DNA of 64,000 nt from a virus. The stretch covers positions 62,001-126,000 of the IMG/VR virus record IMGVR_UViG_3300024243_000005; one strand, written 5' to 3'. This document shows, in pieces, positions 1,763 to 62,330 of this stretch. Within the stretch, counting starts at the first letter, position 1, and each line of letters begins with the position of its first letter. The position numbers were made by a program, and so were the translations under genes. Under the pieces are notes generated by a model. The model was not told the DNA's origin. It saw only the letters and a program-made list of their open reading frames with translations, and did no database searches.

Positions 1763-1893
1763 TGGTACCTTCTCCTCAAACTTCCGTGGTTAGTTCTCCC
1801 GACGAAAAAGAAATCGTATGTGTGTACAGGTTGATTATCATGCCCGCAGAATCCTCCCAGTCGGGAGAAGCATGGGTGACCCTGGGGCACATT

Positions 1894-1902
1894 CTTATAC
1901 CA
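1894..1902 (-). promoter_or_regulatory. leftward TGGTATAAG promoter
   Basis: The minus strand reads TTGGTATAAGAA, an extended -10 (TGG plus TATAAG) with no convincing -35. The same string occurs at three other places, always pointing leftward into genes, tRNAs or a putative ncRNA. Here it would drive the 533-1762 gene. Confidence 0.5.
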
Positions 1903-1930
1903 AGACTCGCGCTTTATTTAGACTTTCGTC

Positions 1931-1943
1931 TATACTACCCAGC
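1931..1943 (+). promoter_or_regulatory. candidate leaderless promoter of the RNA polymerase gene
   Basis: TATACT is followed by 7 nt and then the ATG at 1944. No ribosome site precedes that ATG, so transcription from this -10 box would start at or next to the initiation codon. No clear -35 is seen. Confidence 0.4.
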
Positions 1944-4900
1944 ATGGCACTGACACCCGTACTCATTGATGCAAACACCAAGCGCGCCCAGATCCATAAG
2001 CGCGCGATTGAAGGTGTGCAAAATGTCTTCCCGTTCGTAGCAGGGGACGAGCACACCTTCGACGTCGAGAACCTCAATGTGGACGAGCGGACCTACTCCT
2101 CTCGTCAACAGAAGGACGCGATGATGCGTGGCCGCACACTGCAAGAACCTCTGCGCGGTGACATCGTAATTCGCAACAAAAAAGGCAAGGTCGTCGATCG
2201 ACAAAAGAACGCGGTCCTCGCTCAGCTCCCATTCTTCACCCCCCGGCATACCTTCATCGTGGATGGCAACGAGTACAGCGTACCCCACCAGAAGCGCATC
2301 CGCCCCGGCGTTTATACCCGTGTACGTGGCAACGATGAACTGGAGGCCGCATTCAACCTGGGCAAAGGAGAGAACTTCCGCGTACACATGAACCCTGAAA
2401 AGGGGCACCTCTTCATGCAGTACGGCTCAACGAACATCCCCCTGTATCCGGTGTTGAAGCGCCTCGGCGTACCCACCAGCCAGTTACAGCGCGCCTGGGG
2501 CAAAGGTGTCGTTGACGTAAACCGTGATGCCTTCGCCGCAAAAGATGTAGCGGCAGTTGACAAACTGTACGCTCGTCTCACCCCTGAGCACAGACTCGCT
2601 GACGCCCAAACCACAGAGGAGCGTATTGCCTCCATCCGTGAAAGCTACGAACACACCTCCCTGGAGCCAGAAGTTACGCAGCGCACCCTGGGAAAAGCGT
2701 ATGACCGTGTGACCCCCAACGTTCTCGTGGACGCATCCAAGAAACTCCTTGACGTCCACCGCAAAGGCATCGACGTCGATGACCGCGACAACCTGGCGGT
2801 CCAAACACTACACGGGGTGGACGACTTTATCCGGGAGCGCATCGAACTGGAAGGGAGAAACCTCACTCGCAAGGTGCGCATGAAGGCCCGAGGATCAGCG
2901 GCACCCAGAGTGGCGGAAGTCGTGCCCCCCTCCCCCTTTACGCGGTCTGTCCGAAACTTCGTAACCACGTCGTCCCTGGCCTCCATCGGCGCCCAGATTA
3001 ACCCCATCGAAATGATTGACAGCGCCATGCGTGTCACCTCCCTCGGGGAAGGGGGTATCGGATCAGAGCGCGCAGTGCCCGATGAAGCCCGGCGCCTGCA
3101 CCACACGCACTTCGGTGTACTCGACCCAGCACGCACCCCTGAATCCTTCCGAGCGGGCATTGACCTCCGTGCTGCGCTTTGGACAAGCAAAGACGAGAAG
3201 GGGCGCATCCATACCAAGATGCACGACGTACGTAAGGGTAAGCTCCGCGACGTCCCTGTTGACACCCTCGAAGGATCAACCATCGCATTTCATGGGGAAG
3301 GGAAGAAAAGGTACGGCGTCTCCGCCATGCGCAAAGGGGAACTAGTCTCTGTCCCTCGCAGCCAGGTGGACTACGCAGTCCCGCACGCCAACTTCCTCTA
3401 CAGCCCGGCGACGACGTTGGTACCTTTCATCGAATCCTCACAAGGCAACCGCGTCCTCATGGGTGGCAAAATGGCGACCCAGGCACTGCCCCTGCTTGAG
3501 CGGGAGGAGCCTTACATCCAGGCAGAATCGTACAATCAAGGCCGCACCATGGAGCAGGAGATGGCCCAGCTCGTGGTGCCCACATCCCCCGTCAACGGGG
3601 AGGTGGCCAAGGTAGACCAAGACTACATCTACATCCGCCCTAACGGCACGAAGACGGGCAGTTCCGAACTGGAACTCGCACCCATCGAGCACGCCTGGAC
3701 TGCGAAGGAAGGATCCGAGTGTTGTGATGTTTGCTCCAGCTCCGCCACGACTCGGGTATTGTGGGCAGAGGGCCACGGATACATCCCCGCGTGTGAGAAA
3801 CACAAGGAAGAGATTGCTGAGTCGAAGGGGGACGACTTCTCTGGCTTCAAACCCTTTCCCCACGACAAGCAAGCGTCTGGTGCGACGCTCGTCCGCGTAC
3901 CTTACGACACCGACTACCCACTGTCTTCCAAGACGCGGCTACACAACACCGTGACCGTCAAGAAGGGGGATAAGGTGCGGACCAACCAACACCTGGCGGA
4001 GTCCAACTTCACGCGCAATGGGCGCATGGCACTGGGCCGCAACATGAACGTAGGCTACCTCGCGTACTACGGACTGAACACCAACGACGCCGTGGTGGTC
4101 TCTGAAACCGCCGCACAGAAGCTCACCAGCGAACACATGTACAAAGAAGCGCTGGCCCTCGACACCGACATCACGCTGAACAAGAAAAAGCACCGGATGA
4201 TCTACGGGACACGCTGGACCGCAGCGCAGTACGATAACCTGGACAACCAAGGCATCGCAAAACCAGGTGCCACCGTACACCCGGGTGACCCCATCATCCT
4301 GGCCCTTCGCAAGGCCGCGCCCTCTCCCGAGCAACAGATGTTGGGGCGTCTCCACAAGACACTGGCCACCCCCTTCCGCGAGCAAGCGGTAACCTGGGAC
4401 CACAAGTCTCCAGGCACCATCGCCGAGGTGGTTGCAACCGGGACTCGCATCCTGGTCACGGTCAAGACCAACGAGCCCGCATCCATCGGTGATAAGCTCG
4501 CGGGGCGCTACGGTAATAAGGGTGTCATCTCCCACATCCTCCCCGATGACGTAATGGTGCAGACCCCAGACGGGAAGCCTCTGGACATCCTGATGCCCCC
4601 AACAGGGGTCAACAGCCGCGTCAACCCTGCCCAAGTGTTGGAGACGGCGCTCGCCAAGGTGGCGCGCAAAACAGGGGAACCCATCGCTGTAGGTCCGTCC
4701 TCACAAAACAACGTCACGATGGTGCGCGCCGCACTCAAGAAGCACGGACTCACTGACAAAGAGGTGCTGTTCAACCCCCGCACTGGGAAACATATCAAGG
4801 GGCCAGATGGCCGAGGTGTCATGGTTGGGCCGCAGTACACCTACAAGCTGGCCAAGTCTACCGACACCAACTACTCCGCTCGTGGCATAGATAGTTACGA

Positions 4901-6527
4901 CGTAAATCAGCAGCCATCCAAGGGTGGATCCGACGGTGCCAAGGCTCTGGGGCGCATGGAGATGAACGCCCTGTTGAGCCACAACGCTCGCAACGTGGTC
5001 AAGGAATCCGCCACTGTCAAGAGCAGCCACAACGACGAGTTCTGGCGCGCGTACCAGCTCGGACAACCCCTCCCTGCTCTCCAGGAGCCGTTCGTCGCAA
5101 AGAAGTTCACTGCTATGCTGCAGGGGGCAGGCATCCGTGTGGACAAGGGAGATGAACAAGTAACTCTCGGGCCGCTGACCGACCCTGACATCACACGCCT
5201 CTCGTCGGGCCGCGTCGAAAAGCCCACCATGCTGCGCGAGCGTGACCTCGCACCCGAGAAGGGGGGCTTGTTTGACCCCGTCGTAACTGGGGGTTCTCAA
5301 GGGGAACGCTGGTCTCACATCAACCTATCCGAACCCATCGTCAACCCCTCCTTCGCTGACCCTGTACGTCGGATGTTGGGAATGACGGTCAAGCAGTATC
5401 GCGCCACGATTGGTACGGAGGGCGGGCGTGGCATCCAGTCCCGTCTCGCAGGTCTCAACATGCGCCAGCGAGAACAGGACCTCATCGCTACCACGCGCAC
5501 TGCGACAGGAGCCAACCTCGACAACGCAGTGAAGCAGCTCAAGGCTGTGCGTGCCCTACGCAAAGAAGGGCTCACCCCCGACAAAGCCTACGTCTTGTCC
5601 AAGGTTCCCGTGGTGCCCCCGACCGTGCGCCCCATCCTCCCCTCACGCGGTGGGCGTGACATGCTCATCGCTGACGCCAACTACCTGTACCGCGACACCA
5701 TGTTGGCGAACGACGCTCTCCGCGACGCCAAGAAGGTACTTCCTGATGAAGCCATCGGTGACGCCCGCCGCCACCTACACGATGCGGTGGGTGCGACCTT
5801 CGGCCTCAACGACCCCGTGAGCCCATCCATCAAGGCCAGGGGCGCGAAGGGCTTCATTACCACCATCGCCGGACAGGGGAGCCCGAAGCGAGGCTTCTTC
5901 CACTCTCGTGTCATGTACCGCCCCCAGGACTTGTCGGGACGCGGGACCGTTGCTCCAGACCTCACCCTCAACATGGATGAGATCGGTGTGCCAGAAGAGA
6001 TGCTGTGGACCACCTACGGCCCCCACATCGTCAGACGCCTGGTACAGAATGGGTACCCCGCGATGCAGGCCAAGGAGATGATCGAACAACGACACCCTTC
6101 TGCCAAGAACGCACTCGATGCAGAAATCAAGGAGCGCCCTGTCTTCGTGAACCGCGCACCCACGCTACACCGCCACGGCATGATCGGCGCGTACCCCATC
6201 CCCGTTCCAGGCAAAACCATCCGTGTGAACCCCTTCATGGAAAAGGGCATGAACATGGACTACGACGGCGACACCCTCCAGCTCCATGTCCCGGTGCTGC
6301 ATGAAGCAGTACAAGAAGTGAAGGGCATGACGCTGTCCAATCTCCTGTTCGGAGACCGCACCAAGTCCGACCTGTTGATCTTCCCCCAGCACGAGGCTGT
6401 GCTCGGAATCCACATGGGCACGCAGCCGGGGAAGGGTCGCGCCAAGAAGTTCAAGAGCCCCGGCGAAGCCATCAAGGCGTTCAATAAGGGGGACCTGGAC
6501 TTGATGGACTCGGTACTGATCGACTAG
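1944..6527 (+). CDS. RNA polymerase beta subunit fused to N-terminal half of beta'
   Basis: 1527 residues. The beta part has the conserved N-terminal lobe, the motif LGRNMNVGYLAYYGLN (from about 697), GDKLAGRYGNKGVIS (849-863, the active-site lysine region) and a GRMEMNALLSHNARN C-terminal block (about 1000-1016). Beta' begins near 1110 (FDPVV...GERWSHINL) without the usual N-terminal zinc finger. It continues with the RPILPSRGGRDM lid/rudder region (about 1230), LSGRGTV (about 1329), NRAPTLHRHG (about 1403) and the catalytic NMDYDGD (1437-1443), which keeps the three Mg-binding aspartates. It stops shortly after the catalytic domain; the bridge helix and trigger loop are in the gene at 10204. 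A CCDVC...CEKH zinc-site-like insert lies in beta near 593-617. I chose ATG 1944 over upstream in-frame ATGs because conserved beta sequence starts soon after and a TATACT box precedes it. Confidence 0.9.
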   Translation: MALTPVLIDANTKRAQIHKRAIEGVQNVFPFVAGDEHTFDVENLNVDERTYSSRQQKDAMMRGRTLQEPLRGDIVIRNKKGKVVDRQKNAVLAQLPFFTPRHTFIVDGNEYSVPHQKRIRPGVYTRVRGNDELEAAFNLGKGENFRVHMNPEKGHLFMQYGSTNIPLYPVLKRLGVPTSQLQRAWGKGVVDVNRDAFAAKDVAAVDKLYARLTPEHRLADAQTTEERIASIRESYEHTSLEPEVTQRTLGKAYDRVTPNVLVDASKKLLDVHRKGIDVDDRDNLAVQTLHGVDDFIRERIELEGRNLTRKVRMKARGSAAPRVAEVVPPSPFTRSVRNFVTTSSLASIGAQINPIEMIDSAMRVTSLGEGGIGSERAVPDEARRLHHTHFGVLDPARTPESFRAGIDLRAALWTSKDEKGRIHTKMHDVRKGKLRDVPVDTLEGSTIAFHGEGKKRYGVSAMRKGELVSVPRSQVDYAVPHANFLYSPATTLVPFIESSQGNRVLMGGKMATQALPLLEREEPYIQAESYNQGRTMEQEMAQLVVPTSPVNGEVAKVDQDYIYIRPNGTKTGSSELELAPIEHAWTAKEGSECCDVCSSSATTRVLWAEGHGYIPACEKHKEEIAESKGDDFSGFKPFPHDKQASGATLVRVPYDTDYPLSSKTRLHNTVTVKKGDKVRTNQHLAESNFTRNGRMALGRNMNVGYLAYYGLNTNDAVVVSETAAQKLTSEHMYKEALALDTDITLNKKKHRMIYGTRWTAAQYDNLDNQGIAKPGATVHPGDPIILALRKAAPSPEQQMLGRLHKTLATPFREQAVTWDHKSPGTIAEVVATGTRILVTVKTNEPASIGDKLAGRYGNKGVISHILPDDVMVQTPDGKPLDILMPPTGVNSRVNPAQVLETALAKVARKTGEPIAVGPSSQNNVTMVRAALKKHGLTDKEVLFNPRTGKHIKGPDGRGVMVGPQYTYKLAKSTDTNYSARGIDSYDVNQQPSKGGSDGAKALGRMEMNALLSHNARNVVKESATVKSSHNDEFWRAYQLGQPLPALQEPFVAKKFTAMLQGAGIRVDKGDEQVTLGPLTDPDITRLSSGRVEKPTMLRERDLAPEKGGLFDPVVTGGSQGERWSHINLSEPIVNPSFADPVRRMLGMTVKQYRATIGTEGGRGIQSRLAGLNMRQREQDLIATTRTATGANLDNAVKQLKAVRALRKEGLTPDKAYVLSKVPVVPPTVRPILPSRGGRDMLIADANYLYRDTMLANDALRDAKKVLPDEAIGDARRHLHDAVGATFGLNDPVSPSIKARGAKGFITTIAGQGSPKRGFFHSRVMYRPQDLSGRGTVAPDLTLNMDEIGVPEEMLWTTYGPHIVRRLVQNGYPAMQAKEMIEQRHPSAKNALDAEIKERPVFVNRAPTLHRHGMIGAYPIPVPGKTIRVNPFMEKGMNMDYDGDTLQLHVPVLHEAVQEVKGMTLSNLLFGDRTKSDLLIFPQHEAVLGIHMGTQPGKGRAKKFKSPGEAIKAFNKGDLDLMDSVLID
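4894..4906. repeat. near-match to dispersed palindrome
   Basis: GTTAC-GAC-GTAAA: one arm mismatch; inside the RNA polymerase gene (SYDVN). Confidence 0.4.
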
Positions 6528-6556: not shown

Positions 6557-7057
6557 GTGAAAACTGCACAAGCCCTTGGCGTACGCGCTGCACTAATGAA
6601 GCTCGGCGCAGACCTACCCACCAATCAACGCGAGAACGCGTACCAACACTCCGACAACTTTCTGGGCATGTCCGGCGAGTTCCTGCCCAAGGTGACCGGG
6701 ACCATCGGGGGCGCGAGCGCGGGCGCTGCGGTAGGGGCTGGCCTGGGTGGTGGTGCTGGGATACTCGCCAGCCTCCTCAGTCGTGGGCGAATTCCAGGTG
6801 CTGCCGCTGGCGCTGGTGCCTTGCTCGGCGGCGCAGCGGGAACGGGCCTGGGTGCCATGTCCGGGTACCAAACGGGCAAGAATGAGGGGCGTGCCAACCG
6901 TTACATGGCCGAACGCGGCCTACACCGAGAGCGTGGGTTGGAGCGGCACGACAGGCTCCACGAGCTGCGAAATAAACACCCCGCGTTCAACACGAAGTTT
7001 CGCCAGATTATGTTGGGTGGGTCCACCCCAGCACCCGCCTCCCCTCCTACACCGTAG
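6557..7057 (+). CDS. tagged glycine-zipper protein
   Basis: 166 residues from a GTG preceded by GGAG. The first 18 residues match the recurrent tag (AQALG-VRA-ALMKLGA). Residues about 45-100 are two glycine/alanine-rich hydrophobic segments of the glycine-zipper type, likely membrane-active. The C-terminus is charged and helical. It lies just after the beta-beta' fusion. I infer an internal or ejected virion protein from the tag and from similar proteins in the late region. Confidence 0.7.
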   Translation: MKTAQALGVRAALMKLGADLPTNQRENAYQHSDNFLGMSGEFLPKVTGTIGGASAGAAVGAGLGGGAGILASLLSRGRIPGAAAGAGALLGGAAGTGLGAMSGYQTGKNEGRANRYMAERGLHRERGLERHDRLHELRNKHPAFNTKFRQIMLGGSTPAPASPPTP

Positions 7058-7064
7058 AGCACGG

Positions 7065-7093
7065 TTGAATAAAAGAATTCGCAGACCTATACT
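7065..7093 (+). promoter_or_regulatory. rightward sigma-70-like promoter
   Basis: TTGAAT, 17 nt, TATACT, with CC just before the -10 hexamer. It sits in the gap before the 7122 gene, which also has a ribosome site (CGGAGAAA). Confidence 0.65.
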
Positions 7094-7121
7094 TGCTTCG
7101 TAAAGTTTCCCGGAGAAATGT

Positions 7122-7556
7122 ATGTCCCATATCGACACTGCGTATCATCTCGGCGCTCTTGCTGCCCAGGAAAAAATTGCGGAGGAAGAGAAGAAGGGCT
7201 TCACGCTAATTGAAGCGCTGATCCTCGCGGGGGGTATCGGAGTTCCCGCCGCATACATGGGGAATCGGGCAGCAACCGCAGACCGCGAACCCGTTTCAAT
7301 GGGGCGGCGCGCTCTGAGAGGAGCGGCCACGGGCACCGCTGGTGTACTCGGCGGAGCGTTCGGCGGGGGCATGGGTGCCTGGGCCGGGTCCCATCTCCCT
7401 GGACGCCTCCAAGCGCCCGGAGCCATGCTCGGTGGTCTCGCAGGTGCCATCGGCGGGGGCTACATAGGGGGACACACCGCTGGAGACCAGCTAACTCCTG
7501 GTGCTGCACCCAAACCACCAGCACCACCACAACCAACACCACCACAAGGAACCTAA
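7122..7556 (+). CDS. tagged glycine-zipper protein (paralogue of next gene)
   Basis: 144 residues. The N-terminus (MSHIDTAYHLGALAAQEKIA) is nearly identical to that of the next gene, so the two are duplicates at least at their starts. Residues about 30-130 hold hydrophobic and glycine-zipper segments, with a proline/alanine tail. A structural or ejected membrane-active role is inferred from family resemblance within this window only. Confidence 0.7.
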   Translation: MSHIDTAYHLGALAAQEKIAEEEKKGFTLIEALILAGGIGVPAAYMGNRAATADREPVSMGRRALRGAATGTAGVLGGAFGGGMGAWAGSHLPGRLQAPGAMLGGLAGAIGGGYIGGHTAGDQLTPGAAPKPPAPPQPTPPQGT

Positions 7557-7559
7557 GCC

Positions 7560-8012
7560 ATGTCCCATCTTGATACCGCATACCGTCTCGGTGCCCTTGT
7601 GGCCCAAGAGAAGTTCGCAGCAGAAGAGCAAGCTGCACTCGAACAAGCACAAGGTACCCCGCCCCAGGAAGATCCGAGCATGCTCGCCCAGATCTCTCAG
7701 CTCGCCCAGACCCCCGAAGGTATGGGCGGCGCGGCGGGCGGCGTGGGCGGCGCAGCAGCAGCGGGTAGCGCGGCGGGTCTCGGCCTGCGCGGCAGCAGCA
7801 TGAGCCCCAAGGCGAAGGCTGCGCTGATCGTCGCCAGCGTTCTGGGTGGTGGAGCAGCAGGCGGTGTGGGAGGCGCAGCAGCAGGTAACGCCCTCGCCCC
7901 TCCGCCCCCAGCACCGCCCGCACCCCCGACACCCGCGCCTGAGCCAAGCGCCATCGAGAAGCTCAAGGGCATGTTCGGCGGCGGCACACCGGCAGCAGCA
8001 CCACCCCAGTAG
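7560..8012 (+). CDS. tagged glycine-zipper protein
   Basis: 150 residues, starting 3 nt after the preceding stop. The N-terminus (MSHLDTAYRLGALVAQEKFA) matches its neighbour. A short acidic/glutamine-rich linker precedes two glycine/alanine-rich segments (about 55-80 and 90-115) and a proline-rich tail with a short helix. Both the tag and the zipper recur elsewhere in the window. Confidence 0.7.
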   Translation: MSHLDTAYRLGALVAQEKFAAEEQAALEQAQGTPPQEDPSMLAQISQLAQTPEGMGGAAGGVGGAAAAGSAAGLGLRGSSMSPKAKAALIVASVLGGGAAGGVGGAAAGNALAPPPPAPPAPPTPAPEPSAIEKLKGMFGGGTPAAAPPQ

Positions 8013-8029: not shown

Positions 8030-9148
8030 ATGGCCAGATATGACGAGCACGTACAAGAGAAACTGCGTGAGGTCCTAGCGGCCTACGCCCCCGGTATCCC
8101 TGCTCGTCGCACCTCCGCACTCCCCACCATCACCCAGAACACCACCAACCGTTGGGTCATGGCCATCCAGAACCACAAGGCGCAACGCGCCGGTAAGCAC
8201 CACGACCTGCGCCTCGTTGACCCCGACGCAGGCAAGGCGCACTCCTGGGCCATCCCCAAGTCACGCATGCCAGCCCCGGGAGAGCGCCTCCTCGCTGTAC
8301 AAACCCACACGCACACACCGCAATATGCGTTGCACGGCAAAGGGGAAGGCGTAACCCTTGCTCGCAAGGAGCCAGTGAGTGTACTGGAGTCGTCTCCCGA
8401 TAAACTGCGCTTTCAGCTTGAGGATGACGCTGTGAGTGAGTTCCTTTTACGGCGTAAATCCAAGGACAAGTGGCTCCTCATGAACACGACGAAGACGAGC
8501 GCCGTGCTCGGCCAGACCCACGCACTTCGCAGCCTGGGGCTCCTAGAAAAGGACGCCGCCTGGGGCGCAGCAGCAATGAAGGGGCTGGGCGCTGCGTGGA
8601 ACTGGGGCAGTAAGATGTTGGGACGCGTTGGAGGTGGAGGAGCATCCAAGAGCACCGCACTCGTCCCCCGCACTCCCGGTATGCCCCCTATGCCAGGACC
8701 AGCAGGTCCAGGACTAGGACAGAGATTTATGTCCTGGGCAGGGGCCAGTCCCGTGAATGCCTACGCCGCACAGGGTGGTATGGGCGCAGGCATCGGTGGC
8801 GTTGCTGGTGCTGCGTCCGCAGACCCCGGTAACCGCATGGGTGGGTTCATGCGCGGAGCAGTAGGAGGTGCTGCGCTGGGCCTGGGAGGCGCGCACTTCG
8901 GAGGCAAGGCAGGACTAAACTACGCGGCGGGCAAGGGATTCAACCTGAACCAAACGCAGGGTGCCGTCGGTGCCATGGGGCTCGGTGGGCTCAGCGCAGG
9001 TGGACTCGCCGGGGGCATCGCCGGGGGTGCAGGTTTCGGAGGTGCGCCGCCACCACCCGCTCCACCCATGAACCCAACGAACCGTAGCCCGTGGGGTGGG
9101 CAACAAAACGCCGGTGGTATGAGTGGCACGTTTCCTGGCAAGCCCTGA
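8030..9148 (+). CDS. LigD-type 3'-phosphoesterase domain fused to tag and glycine-zipper tail
   Basis: 372 residues. Residues about 42-150 resemble the phosphoesterase (PE) domain of bacterial DNA ligase D, which trims 3'-phosphate and 3'-ribonucleotide ends. H49, H57, D59 and R61 line up with the metal/phosphate-binding H-H-D-R set (with a 2-residue insertion), H95 with the later histidine (H-x3-Y), and HSWAIPK with the conserved SWAVPKG. At about 157-175 the tag recurs internally (VLGQTHALRSLGLLEK), followed by a glycine-zipper region to the C-terminus. I infer a virion-packaged DNA-end-processing enzyme; enzymatic activity is untested. Confidence 0.75.
   Translation: MARYDEHVQEKLREVLAAYAPGIPARRTSALPTITQNTTNRWVMAIQNHKAQRAGKHHDLRLVDPDAGKAHSWAIPKSRMPAPGERLLAVQTHTHTPQYALHGKGEGVTLARKEPVSVLESSPDKLRFQLEDDAVSEFLLRRKSKDKWLLMNTTKTSAVLGQTHALRSLGLLEKDAAWGAAAMKGLGAAWNWGSKMLGRVGGGGASKSTALVPRTPGMPPMPGPAGPGLGQRFMSWAGASPVNAYAAQGGMGAGIGGVAGAASADPGNRMGGFMRGAVGGAALGLGGAHFGGKAGLNYAAGKGFNLNQTQGAVGAMGLGGLSAGGLAGGIAGGAGFGGAPPPPAPPMNPTNRSPWGGQQNAGGMSGTFPGKP
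8446..8458. repeat. dispersed palindrome TTTAC-GGC-GTAAA
   Basis: Exact match inside the LigD-PE-like gene, encoding LRRK through TTA-CGG-CGT-AAA. Confidence 0.8.
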
Positions 9149-9237
9149 TGACACTTGCACAAACAAAAACAGCCTTCTATCATGCGGGTAGACAGTCTGC
9201 TCTGCATGCAATAGGGATTACAGGAGAACGACAATGA
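9148..9237 (+). CDS. 29-residue ORF consisting mainly of the tag motif
   Basis: The ATG overlaps the preceding stop (TGATG) and the stop overlaps the next start. The product contains AFYHAGRQSALHAIGI, an almost complete copy of the tag seen at the N-termini of larger proteins here, followed by only six residues. The end-to-end overlap with both neighbours suggests real translation by coupling. The function could be that of a free tag peptide or a degenerated tagged gene. Confidence 0.5.
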   Translation: MTLAQTKTAFYHAGRQSALHAIGITGERQ

Positions 9238-9905
9238 GATATTACGCACTCCGCGCCGCAGCTTTCTGCATCTGGGTTGCTGTTACCGGACTCACCATCG
9301 GCGCACCCCTGGTTTCCATCGCGGCTGACGCTCAACCCACTGCTGCGGTAGGCGACGCCGCAGTTCCCGCCGCCCCGGCTGTGCCTGTTGATGCTATGGT
9401 TACCGCCGCGCCCGTGGCTCCTGTGGCTCCCGTCCCCACCGTTGAGGCGCCCGCCGCCCCGAAAGAGCAAGCCTGGTGGCAAGCCGCTCTCCTCCCGATC
9501 CTCAGCGCTCTGGGCCTGGGCATCGCTGCGTTCATTGGTGCGGGTCTACGCAAGCTCACCCAGCTCATGGAAGCCAAGTGGAAGATCGACATCCCCGATC
9601 GGATGGTGGATATGCTTATCAAAGAGGCAAAACACCTTGCGGCCTGGGCTGAGGAGGTCGCTGAGGATCGCCTCCTGAATGGGGACGGCGTGAAGACCCC
9701 GGGCGCTGAGAAGTTCTCCGGTGTCGTGGATGGTCTGGAGACCTTCGCCAAGGCCCGGGGCTGGGACAAGGAATGGCGTCGTGCACAGCTTGAGAAGCTG
9801 GCCACGAGCGTCGTGCACCTGGAGCGCAGCGGTGATACCGGCGTGGGCACCACGAACGGCGACCGGAAGAAGGCCCTGGACGCGGCCAAGAGCGCTGCCG
9901 CATAG
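9234..9905 (+). CDS. membrane protein, possible holin of the LL-H type
   Basis: 223 residues with a ribosome site (CAGGAGAACGAC). Residues 1-30 look like a signal sequence or first membrane helix. A proline/alanine-rich linker precedes a second hydrophobic helix (about 84-105) and a charged helical C-terminal domain. The layout (helix then amphipathic, lysine-rich domain) resembles LL-H-type holins, but the resemblance is loose. It could equally be a membrane-anchored virion protein given its place among tagged proteins. Confidence 0.6.
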   Translation: MRYYALRAAAFCIWVAVTGLTIGAPLVSIAADAQPTAAVGDAAVPAAPAVPVDAMVTAAPVAPVAPVPTVEAPAAPKEQAWWQAALLPILSALGLGIAAFIGAGLRKLTQLMEAKWKIDIPDRMVDMLIKEAKHLAAWAEEVAEDRLLNGDGVKTPGAEKFSGVVDGLETFAKARGWDKEWRRAQLEKLATSVVHLERSGDTGVGTTNGDRKKALDAAKSAAA

Positions 9906-9907
9906 AT

Positions 9908-10201
9908 ATGGCGAGCACCGCATACAAACTGGGGTCTGACCAGGCGCTCCACTCTCTGGGGATCATCAAGGTGAGTGGGGACACCCTCGACCGTGTTCCC
10001 TTCCCCAACAGAGACTCCAACATCACAGCGGAGCGCCTGGCAAAAGTGCTGCAACAAGATGAAACCCCACGCGTGGAGATCAGCCCCGACAACCAGAAGT
10101 TCGATCGCTGGTCACGGCCCGTTGTGTGGAGCGCGTCCAACCGAATAAGCGATGAGCTGCCCAACCCCGGGCTGTACACACCACACAGCACACGAGCCTA
10201 A
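9908..10201 (+). CDS. short tagged protein
   Basis: 97 residues starting 3 nt after the previous stop. The N-terminus (TAYKLGSDQALHSLGIIK) is one of the clearest copies of the shared tag. The remainder is polar, has no glycine zipper and matches no family I know. It immediately precedes the second RNA polymerase fragment, whose TTG start has no good ribosome site, so translation of the two may be coupled. Confidence 0.7.
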   Translation: MASTAYKLGSDQALHSLGIIKVSGDTLDRVPFPNRDSNITAERLAKVLQQDETPRVEISPDNQKFDRWSRPVVWSASNRISDELPNPGLYTPHSTRA

Positions 10202-10203
10202 CT

Positions 10204-11997
10204 TTGGCGCAGCAACGCACATCTGTCGGGCGTCTCCTGCTCAACGATGTCCTCCCTGAGCCTTATCAGCTACCCGAGGACGTTACGAAGAAGGTCCTCA
10301 ATGCCACCATGGCTGACTTCGCGAGGACAGACCCCCAACGCTACGTCCAGGCCATCGGGGACCTCAAAAGAATAGGGGACCAGGTTGCTACCGACATGGG
10401 GCTCACCGTAGGGCTGGATGATATCGAACCAGACTACGCCCGCCGTGACCGTGTTCTTGAGCCCGCTCTGCGCAGAGTCAAGGCACTGAGCGACCCTACT
10501 GCCAAGCGGCGCCTCATCATCAGTACCCAGGATAAGATGTTTGAAATGGCCCCCCAGCACCCTGGTCAGATGGCCATCGTTGCCACGAGTGGTGCACGGG
10601 GCAACGCGGGACAGCTCATGCGCACCGTCACATCCCCAACGGGAGTGACTGACGCACAGGGTGCAGTGATCCCGTGGATGATTAGTAAGAGCTTCTCGGA
10701 GGGGTTGAAGCCTGCTGACACATGGATCGCCATGGCGGAAGCCAGGCGTAACGTGGTCGAATCCAACATCGCTGTCTCTGGCCCCGGTGAGATGAGCAAG
10801 ATCCTGGTCAGTAATATGAGTGACCAGCTCGTCACGGTGCCTGACTGCGGAACAACGAATGGGGTTTCATTCGCACATACCGACCCTCACATCGTTGGAC
10901 GCTACGCTGCCAGCGGAGGGTTTCTGAGCGCCCACCACGTGTCTGGTTTACGGCGTAAAGAGCCCAAGGGGAGCATCATCGTACGATCCCCTATGACCTG
11001 TGAAGCGCCGAACGGCGTCTGCCAAAAGTGCTACGGACAAACGCCAACAGGTAAAGACCCCCAGATTGGGTACAACGTAGGAATGATCGCAGCCCAGGCT
11101 ATGGGGGAGCCACTAACCCAGATGGCGCTGAGCGCAAAGCACGCAACGCGTACTGCCAAATCGCAACGTGCAGTCCTCCAGGGGTTGAGTGGCCTGAAGC
11201 AGCTCACCGAGATGCCACAGAGCTTTTTCAACCGCGCCACCTTGGCTCAAGAGCCGGGACGCGTAACCGCTGTCCGCGAAGCACCTCAAGGTGGACACTA
11301 CGTCAACGTCAACGAACAAGAGCACTACGTACCCCCAAACCTGGACGTAACCGTCAAGCCTGGTCAGCGCATCGAACAAGGAGACGCGCTATCCGACGGC
11401 ATCCCCAAACCCGATGAAGTGGTGCAGCACAAAGGTCTCGGAGCAGGGCGGCGCTACATGGTGGACCAGCTCCACCAGATCTACACGCGTAATGGTCTCG
11501 ACCTGGATAAGAGGCACCTGGAGCTGCTCGCCAAGACCGACCTGAACTACGTCAAGGTGTTGGACGCTGACAGCCCAGAACTGGGTGTAGCTCGCGGAGA
11601 AGTTGTGGATTACAACCGCTTCCGCGCAGCCGTCGCAAAGAAAGCGAAGAGGCGCCCCACCGCCCAAGCCCAGGGACAGTTCCTTGGAGACAACGTCCTG
11701 CATTACACCGCAGGCACCGAAGTTACCCCCAGTGTAATGGCAGACTTGGAGCGCAGTGGGGTGAAAAACGTACCCACACTCCCCCACGTACCCCAGCACG
11801 AACTCATCCTCAAGCCTATCAGCCGTACTCCCCTGTTACACTCGGACTGGTTGGCGCGGTTAGGCCACCGCAATTTGAAAGCATCCATCTTGGATGGCGC
11901 AACCTTTGGTGAATCATCTAATATACACGGCACGCATCCAGTCCCAGCGTTTGTCTTTGGCGAAACACTGGGGCGCGGGCCGCAAGGACGATACTAA
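10204..11997 (+). CDS. RNA polymerase beta' subunit, C-terminal part
   Basis: 597 residues from a TTG start. It opens with TSVGRLLL, the point in beta' just after the active-site domain. It contains the bridge-helix region (TSGARGNAGQLMRT, about 127-140), the second beta' zinc site (the cysteine of VPDCGT plus CEAPNGVCQKC, about 266-277) and the trigger loop (GEPLTQ then MALSAKH, about 299-312). Alignment to the E. coli trigger loop by eye keeps the catalytic histidine but has serine where Arg933 is expected. The C-terminus is shortened. Together with the 1944 gene it supplies one complete beta/beta' core; no alpha, omega or sigma gene is evident in the window. Confidence 0.88.
   Translation: MAQQRTSVGRLLLNDVLPEPYQLPEDVTKKVLNATMADFARTDPQRYVQAIGDLKRIGDQVATDMGLTVGLDDIEPDYARRDRVLEPALRRVKALSDPTAKRRLIISTQDKMFEMAPQHPGQMAIVATSGARGNAGQLMRTVTSPTGVTDAQGAVIPWMISKSFSEGLKPADTWIAMAEARRNVVESNIAVSGPGEMSKILVSNMSDQLVTVPDCGTTNGVSFAHTDPHIVGRYAASGGFLSAHHVSGLRRKEPKGSIIVRSPMTCEAPNGVCQKCYGQTPTGKDPQIGYNVGMIAAQAMGEPLTQMALSAKHATRTAKSQRAVLQGLSGLKQLTEMPQSFFNRATLAQEPGRVTAVREAPQGGHYVNVNEQEHYVPPNLDVTVKPGQRIEQGDALSDGIPKPDEVVQHKGLGAGRRYMVDQLHQIYTRNGLDLDKRHLELLAKTDLNYVKVLDADSPELGVARGEVVDYNRFRAAVAKKAKRRPTAQAQGQFLGDNVLHYTAGTEVTPSVMADLERSGVKNVPTLPHVPQHELILKPISRTPLLHSDWLARLGHRNLKASILDGATFGESSNIHGTHPVPAFVFGETLGRGPQGRY
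10947..10959. repeat. dispersed palindrome TTTAC-GGC-GTAAA
   Basis: Exact match inside the beta' C-terminal gene, encoding LRRK. Confidence 0.8.
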
Positions 11998-48958: not shown

Positions 48959-49822
48959 ATGAACCCACGTGAGCACCAAGCACTACTCATCAAACTCGGA
49001 CTGGATACAAGCCAGGGTATCCCTGCTGGGTCCATGGAAGAGCAGCTCCTCGGGTACGGGAAGCCCCTGCTCGCCATCGGTGGTGGCGCTGCTGGTGGTG
49101 CCATCCTGGGTGGCTTGGGCGACAAGCTACTGGGGACCGCACTCAACCGTCAAGACCTCCCACCAATCCTCACCATGTTGGGTATGGCGGGTGGTGGCTA
49201 CGGCGGGTACCAAGCAGCACAGCCCACCGATGGACAATCCAGCTTCTGGGATAAAATCCGCAGGAAGACCAACGACGCCTCGCAGAGCGTCTTCGGTAGC
49301 AACTGGACCGAACCCCAAGGCACGGGCGGTGTGGGCGCAGGGGCATTCAGAGACACCACCTCGAAAGACGCAGCGTTCCTCGGCGACAACGTCCCCAGCA
49401 TCACCCCTCGGCCTCAACCCCCCATGCCCAACAAGGTGGCCGCTGCACAACCATCCTTGGGTGACCCCGACTACTGGGCGGGGGGCCAAGCTGAGATCAT
49501 CAAGCAGCAACTCGCCTCTCAAGGGGGCACTCCGATGCCCGAGGCCCCTATGCCCGAGGCTTCCGCACCCGGCGGTGCAGAGGGCGGCGGATCCACTGGC
49601 GTGGAGCAAGTAGCGGCGCAGCTCCCCCCGGGGTCCTTCCAGGGACTCAACATCCGTGTGACGCCCGAAGGAAAACGCTCCACGGGCCTGAAGGTCACCC
49701 CGGATGCCTTGGCTTCTCCCGAGGTGCTGCAGCAGGTATTCCAGACAGAACCCGAAGCCCGCATCGAAATCACCTCACCCGAGACCTCCGCATCCGTGAC
49801 GAGCTTCAGTGAGCGTGGCTGA
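48959..49822 (+). CDS. tagged glycine-zipper protein
   Basis: 287 residues, start adjacent to the previous stop. N-terminal tag REHQALLIKLGLD. Glycine/alanine-rich segments (about 37-85), then low-complexity proline/glutamate sequence and a small beta/alpha C-terminal domain. Coupled to the next gene by a short overlap (TGATG). Confidence 0.65.
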   Translation: MNPREHQALLIKLGLDTSQGIPAGSMEEQLLGYGKPLLAIGGGAAGGAILGGLGDKLLGTALNRQDLPPILTMLGMAGGGYGGYQAAQPTDGQSSFWDKIRRKTNDASQSVFGSNWTEPQGTGGVGAGAFRDTTSKDAAFLGDNVPSITPRPQPPMPNKVAAAQPSLGDPDYWAGGQAEIIKQQLASQGGTPMPEAPMPEASAPGGAEGGGSTGVEQVAAQLPPGSFQGLNIRVTPEGKRSTGLKVTPDALASPEVLQQVFQTEPEARIEITSPETSASVTSFSERG

Positions 49823-50139
49823 TGTCCCAGCACGCACACCATGGGGCCGCTGCCGCCCTTACGAAGCTGGGGTTCAACGTGGGCCTGTACCCCTACTTCC
49901 CACGCACTGAGGAAGCCACTCCTCCCACTGCGAAGAAACCCGAACGCGACCCCTGGACCAAGGTTCGCATGATGGGTCCCGCCGTCGGAGCAACCACTGG
50001 GGGTGTCCTGGGTTTGGTCTCAGCCCTACGCAACCCCCGCAGCATCGGGAAGACCCTCAAGCACACCCTCGGCGGTGCAGGCACGGGCTCTCTGCTCGGC
50101 TGGGCACCCGACTTCTACTCCACCGCATACGAAGCATAA
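49822..50139 (+). CDS. short tagged protein with hydrophobic segment
   Basis: 105 residues. N-terminal tag HGAAAALTKLGFNVG. Then a basic region, a hydrophobic glycine-rich segment (about 52-70) and a second near the C-terminus. Last gene of the tagged cluster before a new promoter. Confidence 0.65.
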   Translation: MSQHAHHGAAAALTKLGFNVGLYPYFPRTEEATPPTAKKPERDPWTKVRMMGPAVGATTGGVLGLVSALRNPRSIGKTLKHTLGGAGTGSLLGWAPDFYSTAYEA

Positions 50140-61931: not shown

Positions 61932-62330
61932 TTACTTAATCGTTGGAGCTGCGGCCTCGGTTACCTCTTCACCGGGGAAGCGCCAGCAAAAACCTCGTGC
62001 GGTACTGCTGGTCCAGTGCACGACCGAAGTGACTCCCTCCTTCACCGTCTGCCGTCCGTACTGATCCTCCGCACCCTGATTCTTGTCCACCACGACCAAA
62101 TTGATGCACGGCCAATGCTCTCCAGCCTCTTTGTAGTCGTTAAGGATGACGCCATCGTCGCCCGTATCGTACACGTAAGGATCCTCGCTCCCCTCGGGGG
62201 CGGGTTTCCTACGCGGACAGACCAGGCGTCCTTTGGGGTCACCGTGGATGCAAAGCAGCAATGCGTCACGCTCAACGCGGTCAGCATCGATGAACACCAG
62301 GTGCATTCCAACTACCAGTTCTCGTTTCAT
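61932..62330 (-). CDS. hypothetical protein
   Basis: 132 residues with ribosome site AAGGAGA. Beta-strand rich, aspartate/glutamate-rich middle. No family recognised. Confidence 0.6.
   Translation of the reverse strand: MKRELVVGMHLVFIDADRVERDALLLCIHGDPKGRLVCPRRKPAPEGSEDPYVYDTGDDGVILNDYKEAGEHWPCINLVVVDKNQGAEDQYGRQTVKEGVTSVVHWTSSTARGFCWRFPGEEVTEAAAPTIK

Follow-up and report, generated by a model that had tools for sequence, protein, structure and literature searches.

A LigD-type 3'-phosphoesterase domain in a peptide-tagged phage protein, with phosphoesterase-ligase fusions among its relatives

Between two genes for a multisubunit RNA polymerase, the record of a large uncultured phage (IMG/VR IMGVR_UViG_3300024243_000005; positions 62,001 to 126,000, a stretch of 64,000 nucleotides called the window below) encodes a 372-residue protein that raises two questions: is it a DNA repair enzyme of the LigD type, and what would a phage use it for? 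A sequence-only reading had described a LigD-type 3'-phosphoesterase (PE) domain followed by a tag and a membrane-active tail, with no ligase attached, and had proposed that this DNA-end-cleaning enzyme is packaged in the virion. Bacteria and archaea are known to use end joining of the LigD type. To our knowledge, phages have not been known to carry a LigD repair enzyme of their own and have previously been known to borrow one by bringing Ku. The features of the locus are listed in Table 1.

Table 1. Features at and around the PE gene, in window positions
Feature	Positions	Strand	Basis or remark
Fusion of multisubunit RNA polymerase beta and N-terminal beta'	1818..6527	+	Pfam; upstream border of the conserved slot
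Three small proteins with tag and glycine-rich sequence (6557-7057, 7122-7556, 7560-8012)	6557..8012	+	Upstream of the PE gene
372-aa protein	8030..9148	+	From the N terminus: degenerate stretch, PE domain of LigD type, internal tag, tail rich in glycine
LigD 3'-phosphoesterase (PE) domain	8147..8485	+	Residues ~40-152; profiles, alignments, fold
Site where the family loop FGEKKPxxIGxGYGKGR is ~12 residues short	8333..8356	+	After the Tyr99 region; family alignment
Internal tag copy TSAVLGQTHALRSLGLLEKDAA	8495..8560	+	Tag HMM, 7.5 bits; about residues 160-177
Glycine/alanine-rich tail of the PE protein	8561..9145	+	
Tag-only ORF MTLAQTKTAFYHAGRQSALHAIGITGERQ, 29 aa	9148..9237	+	Overlaps the stop of the PE gene (TGATG) and the start of the following gene (ATGA)
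Conserved neighbors: 223-aa protein and 97-aa tagged protein	9234..10201	+	
RNA polymerase beta' C-terminal part	10204..11997	+	Pfam; downstream border of the conserved slot

Profile matches, fold, and invariant active-site residues support the conclusion that the domain is a true LigD PE domain, as first read. The Pfam model LigD_N (PF13298) matched residues 47 to 100 (E = 1.7e-6; 28.6 bits, below the cut-off of 31.1), and the NCBIfam model TIGR02777 (LigD_PE_dom) matched residues 33 to 100 (E = 2e-7, with bits below the equivalog cut-off). When the 180-kb viral record was searched in six frames, PF13298 scored 30.6 bits, or 31.2 bits with frame neighbors, which narrowly exceeds the cut-off, and the PE gene gave the only LigD_N match in that record. 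A profile built from 8 distinct phage sequences picked out five different PDB sequences of LigD PE, among them 3p4h (the best, 3e-11) and 3p43 (4e-9). The window domain was modeled with AlphaFold at medium confidence (pLDDT 69, pTM 0.66), and the model gave six significant Foldseek matches, all of them LigD PE (E from 2e-6 to 1e-4); VIA Z was 8.8 to 11.4 for six LigD PE entries, and the next, unrelated entry reached 3.8. By Foldseek and VIA, the modeled domain has the PE beta-barrel fold. Neither a mismatch of fold nor a failure of the catalytic residues to align, which the sequence-only reading had named as counterevidence, was found at the level of sequence and fold. We conclude that the 3'-phosphoesterase domain of the window protein is a genuine member of the LigD family.

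The active site points to a particular activity. In the PE domain of LigD, H42, H48, and D50 are the metal ligands, R52, H84, and Y88 are the phosphate ligands, and Q40 and S61 are supporting residues (reviewed in PMC8656161). By alignment, which is not a superposition, Q47, H49, H57, D59, R61, S72, K77, H95, and Y99 of the window protein correspond to Q40, H42, H48, D50, R52, S61, K66, H84, and Y88 of Pseudomonas aeruginosa LigD, and counterparts of both the Mn site (His42/His48/Asp50) and the phosphate site (Arg52/His84/Tyr88) are present. The H-H-D-R and later H residues recognized beforehand (H49, H57, D59, R61, and H95) are therefore in place, and all nine aligned residues are invariant across the 8 distinct phage sequences. 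Glu82, Arg14, Asp15, and Glu21 of LigD are required in the 3'-phosphatase step and dispensable for removal of a 3' ribonucleoside (PMC8656161), and residues of this class are hence not decisive for membership in the PE family. In the alignments, Glu82 is replaced by His93 of the window protein and by Phe in its relatives, whereas solved PE structures (3p4h, 3p43, and 5dmp) keep Glu there; P. aeruginosa Arg76 aligns with Leu in the phage family. No counterpart of the Arg14/Asp15/Glu21 motif was found in the phage family, whose N-terminal region is not confidently alignable. Because Glu82 is replaced and this motif was not found, the phage PE is predicted to carry out 3'-end resection rather than phosphate removal, and it may leave 3'-phosphates in place. 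Of the proposed end-cleaning role, the LigD PE identity stands, and resection of 3' ends is likelier than cleaning of phosphates.

Nine related viral contigs (L001 to L009) were found, and wider viral scans added none to these nine. One of them, L001, is a separate contig whose ORF is identical to that at 8030-9148, with 1 mismatch in 12.9 kb, and it is the same phage as the window's or nearly so. In seven of the nine (L003 to L009), a single protein contains the PE domain followed by an ATP-dependent DNA ligase. The absence of an attached ligase thus holds for the window protein and fails for its family. PF01068 scored over its cut-off in all seven PE-ligase records in a six-frame search, and two of the proteins (L005 and L008) align colinearly over ~400 residues with the PE and LIG domains of the mycobacterial-type LigD PRK09632. 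The ligase motifs KxDG, GEL, FDV, and EGVV are visible; profile matches and these motifs are the basis of the ligase assignment, the structure model of a PE-ligase having a pLDDT of 33. PF01068 was not found in a six-frame search of the window's 180-kb record or of the L002 record. In the nine viral records, several of which are fragments, neither Ku (PF02735) nor an NAD ligase was found, and there was no convincing LigD POL domain, the one weak match to TIGR02778 (G006, E = 0.006) containing an internal stop. The window's phage itself encodes a DNA polymerase, a primase, a helicase, and a ribonucleotide reductase.

Two of the fusions carry further modules. The L005 protein (L005:7923-10742) is extended by DUF4269 and a C39 peptidase, and the L009 protein (L009:7911-9806) is extended by a GNAT domain. 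A SET domain protein with a C-terminal tag lies in the same gene slot at L003:9401-9823. Diverse cargo-like modules, some of them tagged, occupy one gene slot (SET, GNAT, C39 peptidase, and DUF4269). At L004:9422-10282, a GIY-YIG/NUMOD3 homing-type endonuclease gene adjoins the PE-ligase gene.

Like the window protein, the L002 protein has no ligase; both have the layout PE, tag, and a further part. The C-terminal part in L002 (L002:8445-9242) had no Pfam match; by eye, it has an HGTS...GL motif resembling ADP-ribosyltransferases. The ancestral form was probably a PE-ligase fusion from which the window lineage lost the ligase. Loss rather than gain is favored because the fusion is more widespread and is colinear with LigD, the direction being read from these two features rather than from a tree. 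The simplest inference is that the PE lost its ligase and then joined the following tagged gene, or that modules were shuffled. A 43-aa stretch of the window tail resembles the tag and glycine-zipper N terminus of the L004 PE-ligase (47% identity, E = 7e-4 in a blastp search of 7 sequences), a likeness that is suggestive only. The tail had been called membrane active; this found no support, since the best 19-residue hydropathy is 1.33, and a membrane-spanning tail was rejected on that ground. Through internal initiation, the PE unit might be read as two overlapping genes. In L002, a strong ribosome site (aggagaagga, L002:8466) precedes an in-frame ATG just ahead of the internal tag and suggests a second, shorter product from that ORF, whereas the internal in-frame ATG at 8480 of the window has only a weak and distant site.

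The surroundings of the gene are conserved. In every case the PE gene follows the fusion of RNA polymerase beta and beta' and, where the locus reaches, precedes the gene for the C-terminal part of beta'. In loci reaching far enough, homologs of the gene at 9234 and mostly also of that at 9908 lie in the same order between the PE gene and the beta' C-terminal gene; in L008 and L009, the 97-aa homolog is too diverged for BLAST, and a tagged ORF stands at that place. The RNA polymerase fusion of L002 (L002:689-7072) has extra, intein-like segments relative to that of the window (2,127 versus 1,569 aa).

As noted in the first reading, a tag follows the PE domain, and it is common to many neighboring proteins. 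It is a peptide of the form KTA-Y-x-x-G-x-x-x-AL-x-x-LG that occurs at N termini, at C termini, or internally. Run over 2,586 ORFs, a tag profile gave 34 matches above 8 bits, every one on the coding strand, and 0 in shuffled proteins; the count is partly circular, the profile having been trained on some of the peptides recovered. Most copies are N-terminal; the tag is C-terminal in L003, L004, and L007 to L009 and internal in L002 and the window PE protein. The 29-aa ORF of the window, which is almost nothing but the tag, sits where L003, L004, and L007 to L009 encode a larger protein with the tag at its end. Many small glycine-rich proteins encoded in the same stretch as the structural genes carry it as well. 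At 49822-50139, a tagged small protein weakly matches Romo1-like, glycine-rich sequence (6e-4, short of the cut-off). From this distribution we infer that the tag would be a position-independent address peptide, possibly one that marks cargo for packaging.

In light of these observations, the reading we favor, at about even confidence, is that the window protein descends from a LigD-like heal-and-seal enzyme and serves the phage as tagged cargo. An ancestral-type tagged PE-ligase, with the domains, domain order, gene slot, and tag seen in the relatives, would heal and seal DNA ends. In the window lineage, the ligase would have been lost and the PE fused to a tag and a glycine-rich partner. The remaining PE would act as a phosphodiesterase that depends on a metal, probably Mn, and trims 3' ends. 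Since Glu82 is replaced and the Arg14/Asp15/Glu21 motif was not found, its 3'-phosphatase activity should be weak or absent. The tag would most likely send the PE protein and its tagged neighbors to one common place, for which the tag and the gene neighborhood make the capsid interior the best guess, and they would be delivered together with the genome. The PE would there process the ends of entering or damaged phage DNA, and the host would supply the ligase. With no Ku or POL found, these data do not establish an NHEJ-like pathway.

The same enzyme family could instead act inside the infected cell without being packaged, the tag serving as an address to the replication site or RNA polymerase complex or as a docking helix. 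We regard this as unlikely but as a serious contender: the slot lies between RNA polymerase genes, the tag occurs at both protein ends, unlike the cleaved N-terminal capsid-targeting sequence of T4, and packaging is itself a reading of tag and neighborhood. Against it, many small glycine-rich tagged proteins lie near the structural genes, as bulk cargo would. The favored reading, tagged cargo from a heal-and-seal enzyme, also has a bolder form, which we consider rather improbable, in which the phage lineage packages and injects a Ku-independent LigD-type PE-ligase by means of the position-independent tag, trimming and sealing genome ends on entry, and the window's phage has kept the PE half and relies on a host ligase.

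The window PE might also be a relic that kept only a DNA-binding or structural role once the ligase was lost. The window protein may be decaying: ~12 residues are missing next to the active site, the ligase is lost, and its PE scores are the lowest of the family. This explanation is nevertheless doubtful, since all nine aligned active-site residues are kept at 60 to 67% identity, and L002 also keeps a PE without a ligase. Moreover, PE codon changes between the window and its relatives are concentrated at third positions (36/28/79 by codon position against L002), and the L008 and L009 PE domains differ by 42 synonymous and 3 nonsynonymous codon changes; this bias and this excess indicate purifying selection on the PE. 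A PE-ligase for RNA repair (e.g., of cleaved tRNAs) rather than for DNA ends is very unlikely: the L008 ligase weakly matches PF09414 RNA_ligase (5.5e-4) and LigD PE acts on 3' ribonucleotides (PMC8656161), but DNA ligase models score better (PF01068, 1.5e-7; PRK09632 over PE and LIG).

Compared with LigD of Mycobacterium and P. aeruginosa, a bacterial NHEJ protein with POL, PE, and LIG domains, the phage family is alike in PE fold and active site and, in the relatives, in the order of PE and LIG. It differs in that POL and Ku were not found, Glu82 is replaced, Arg14/Asp15/Glu21 were not found, and a tag is added; the window form also lacks the ligase. By sequence and fold, the closest solved structures are those of PEs that stand alone, most of them archaeal (3p4h, 3p43, and 5dmp). 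We take 5dmp to be a separate archaeal NHEJ phosphoesterase, so that a PE without an attached ligase was already known, and we know of no phage tag or glycine-rich tail on such proteins. The capsid-targeting sequences of T4, one precedent for the tag, are cleaved N-terminal peptides of 10 to 20 residues, whereas the phage tag here, a candidate address peptide, is also C-terminal or internal. A second precedent comes from SPN3US and phiKZ, whose ejection proteins accompany a virion RNA polymerase (PMC5694885); the likeness is a short shared peptide on cargo-like proteins near multisubunit RNA polymerase genes. As summarized in the part of PMC7719229 that cites Pitcher 2006, mycobacteriophages Omega and Corndog bring Ku and borrow the host LigD. 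By that account, this is likewise phage use of LigD-type end joining, with a phage Ku and a host LigD in place of the phage PE or PE-ligase seen here, where Ku was not found.

Searches of wider collections returned no close kin. The window protein and the L008 PE-ligase had no match in 50,697 phage genomes, a nucleotide search gave none, PHROGs holds no family for the PE protein, and the BFVD viral structures gave no match at E <= 0.001. Genome contigs scanned with the PE alignment yielded no confirmed relative, the pattern-based scan reaching fairly close relatives only. No NHEJ components were reported in ~3,000 actinobacteriophages (PMC7719229), and our literature search turned up no paper that connects LigD, phage, phosphoesterase, and virion. 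These negatives mark the limits of search scope and are not proof of absence. A phage family with its own PE-ligase, altered at a residue that separates the two PE activities, is a natural test of the function of that residue, and the tag common to these proteins could show by what means large phages select their cargo.
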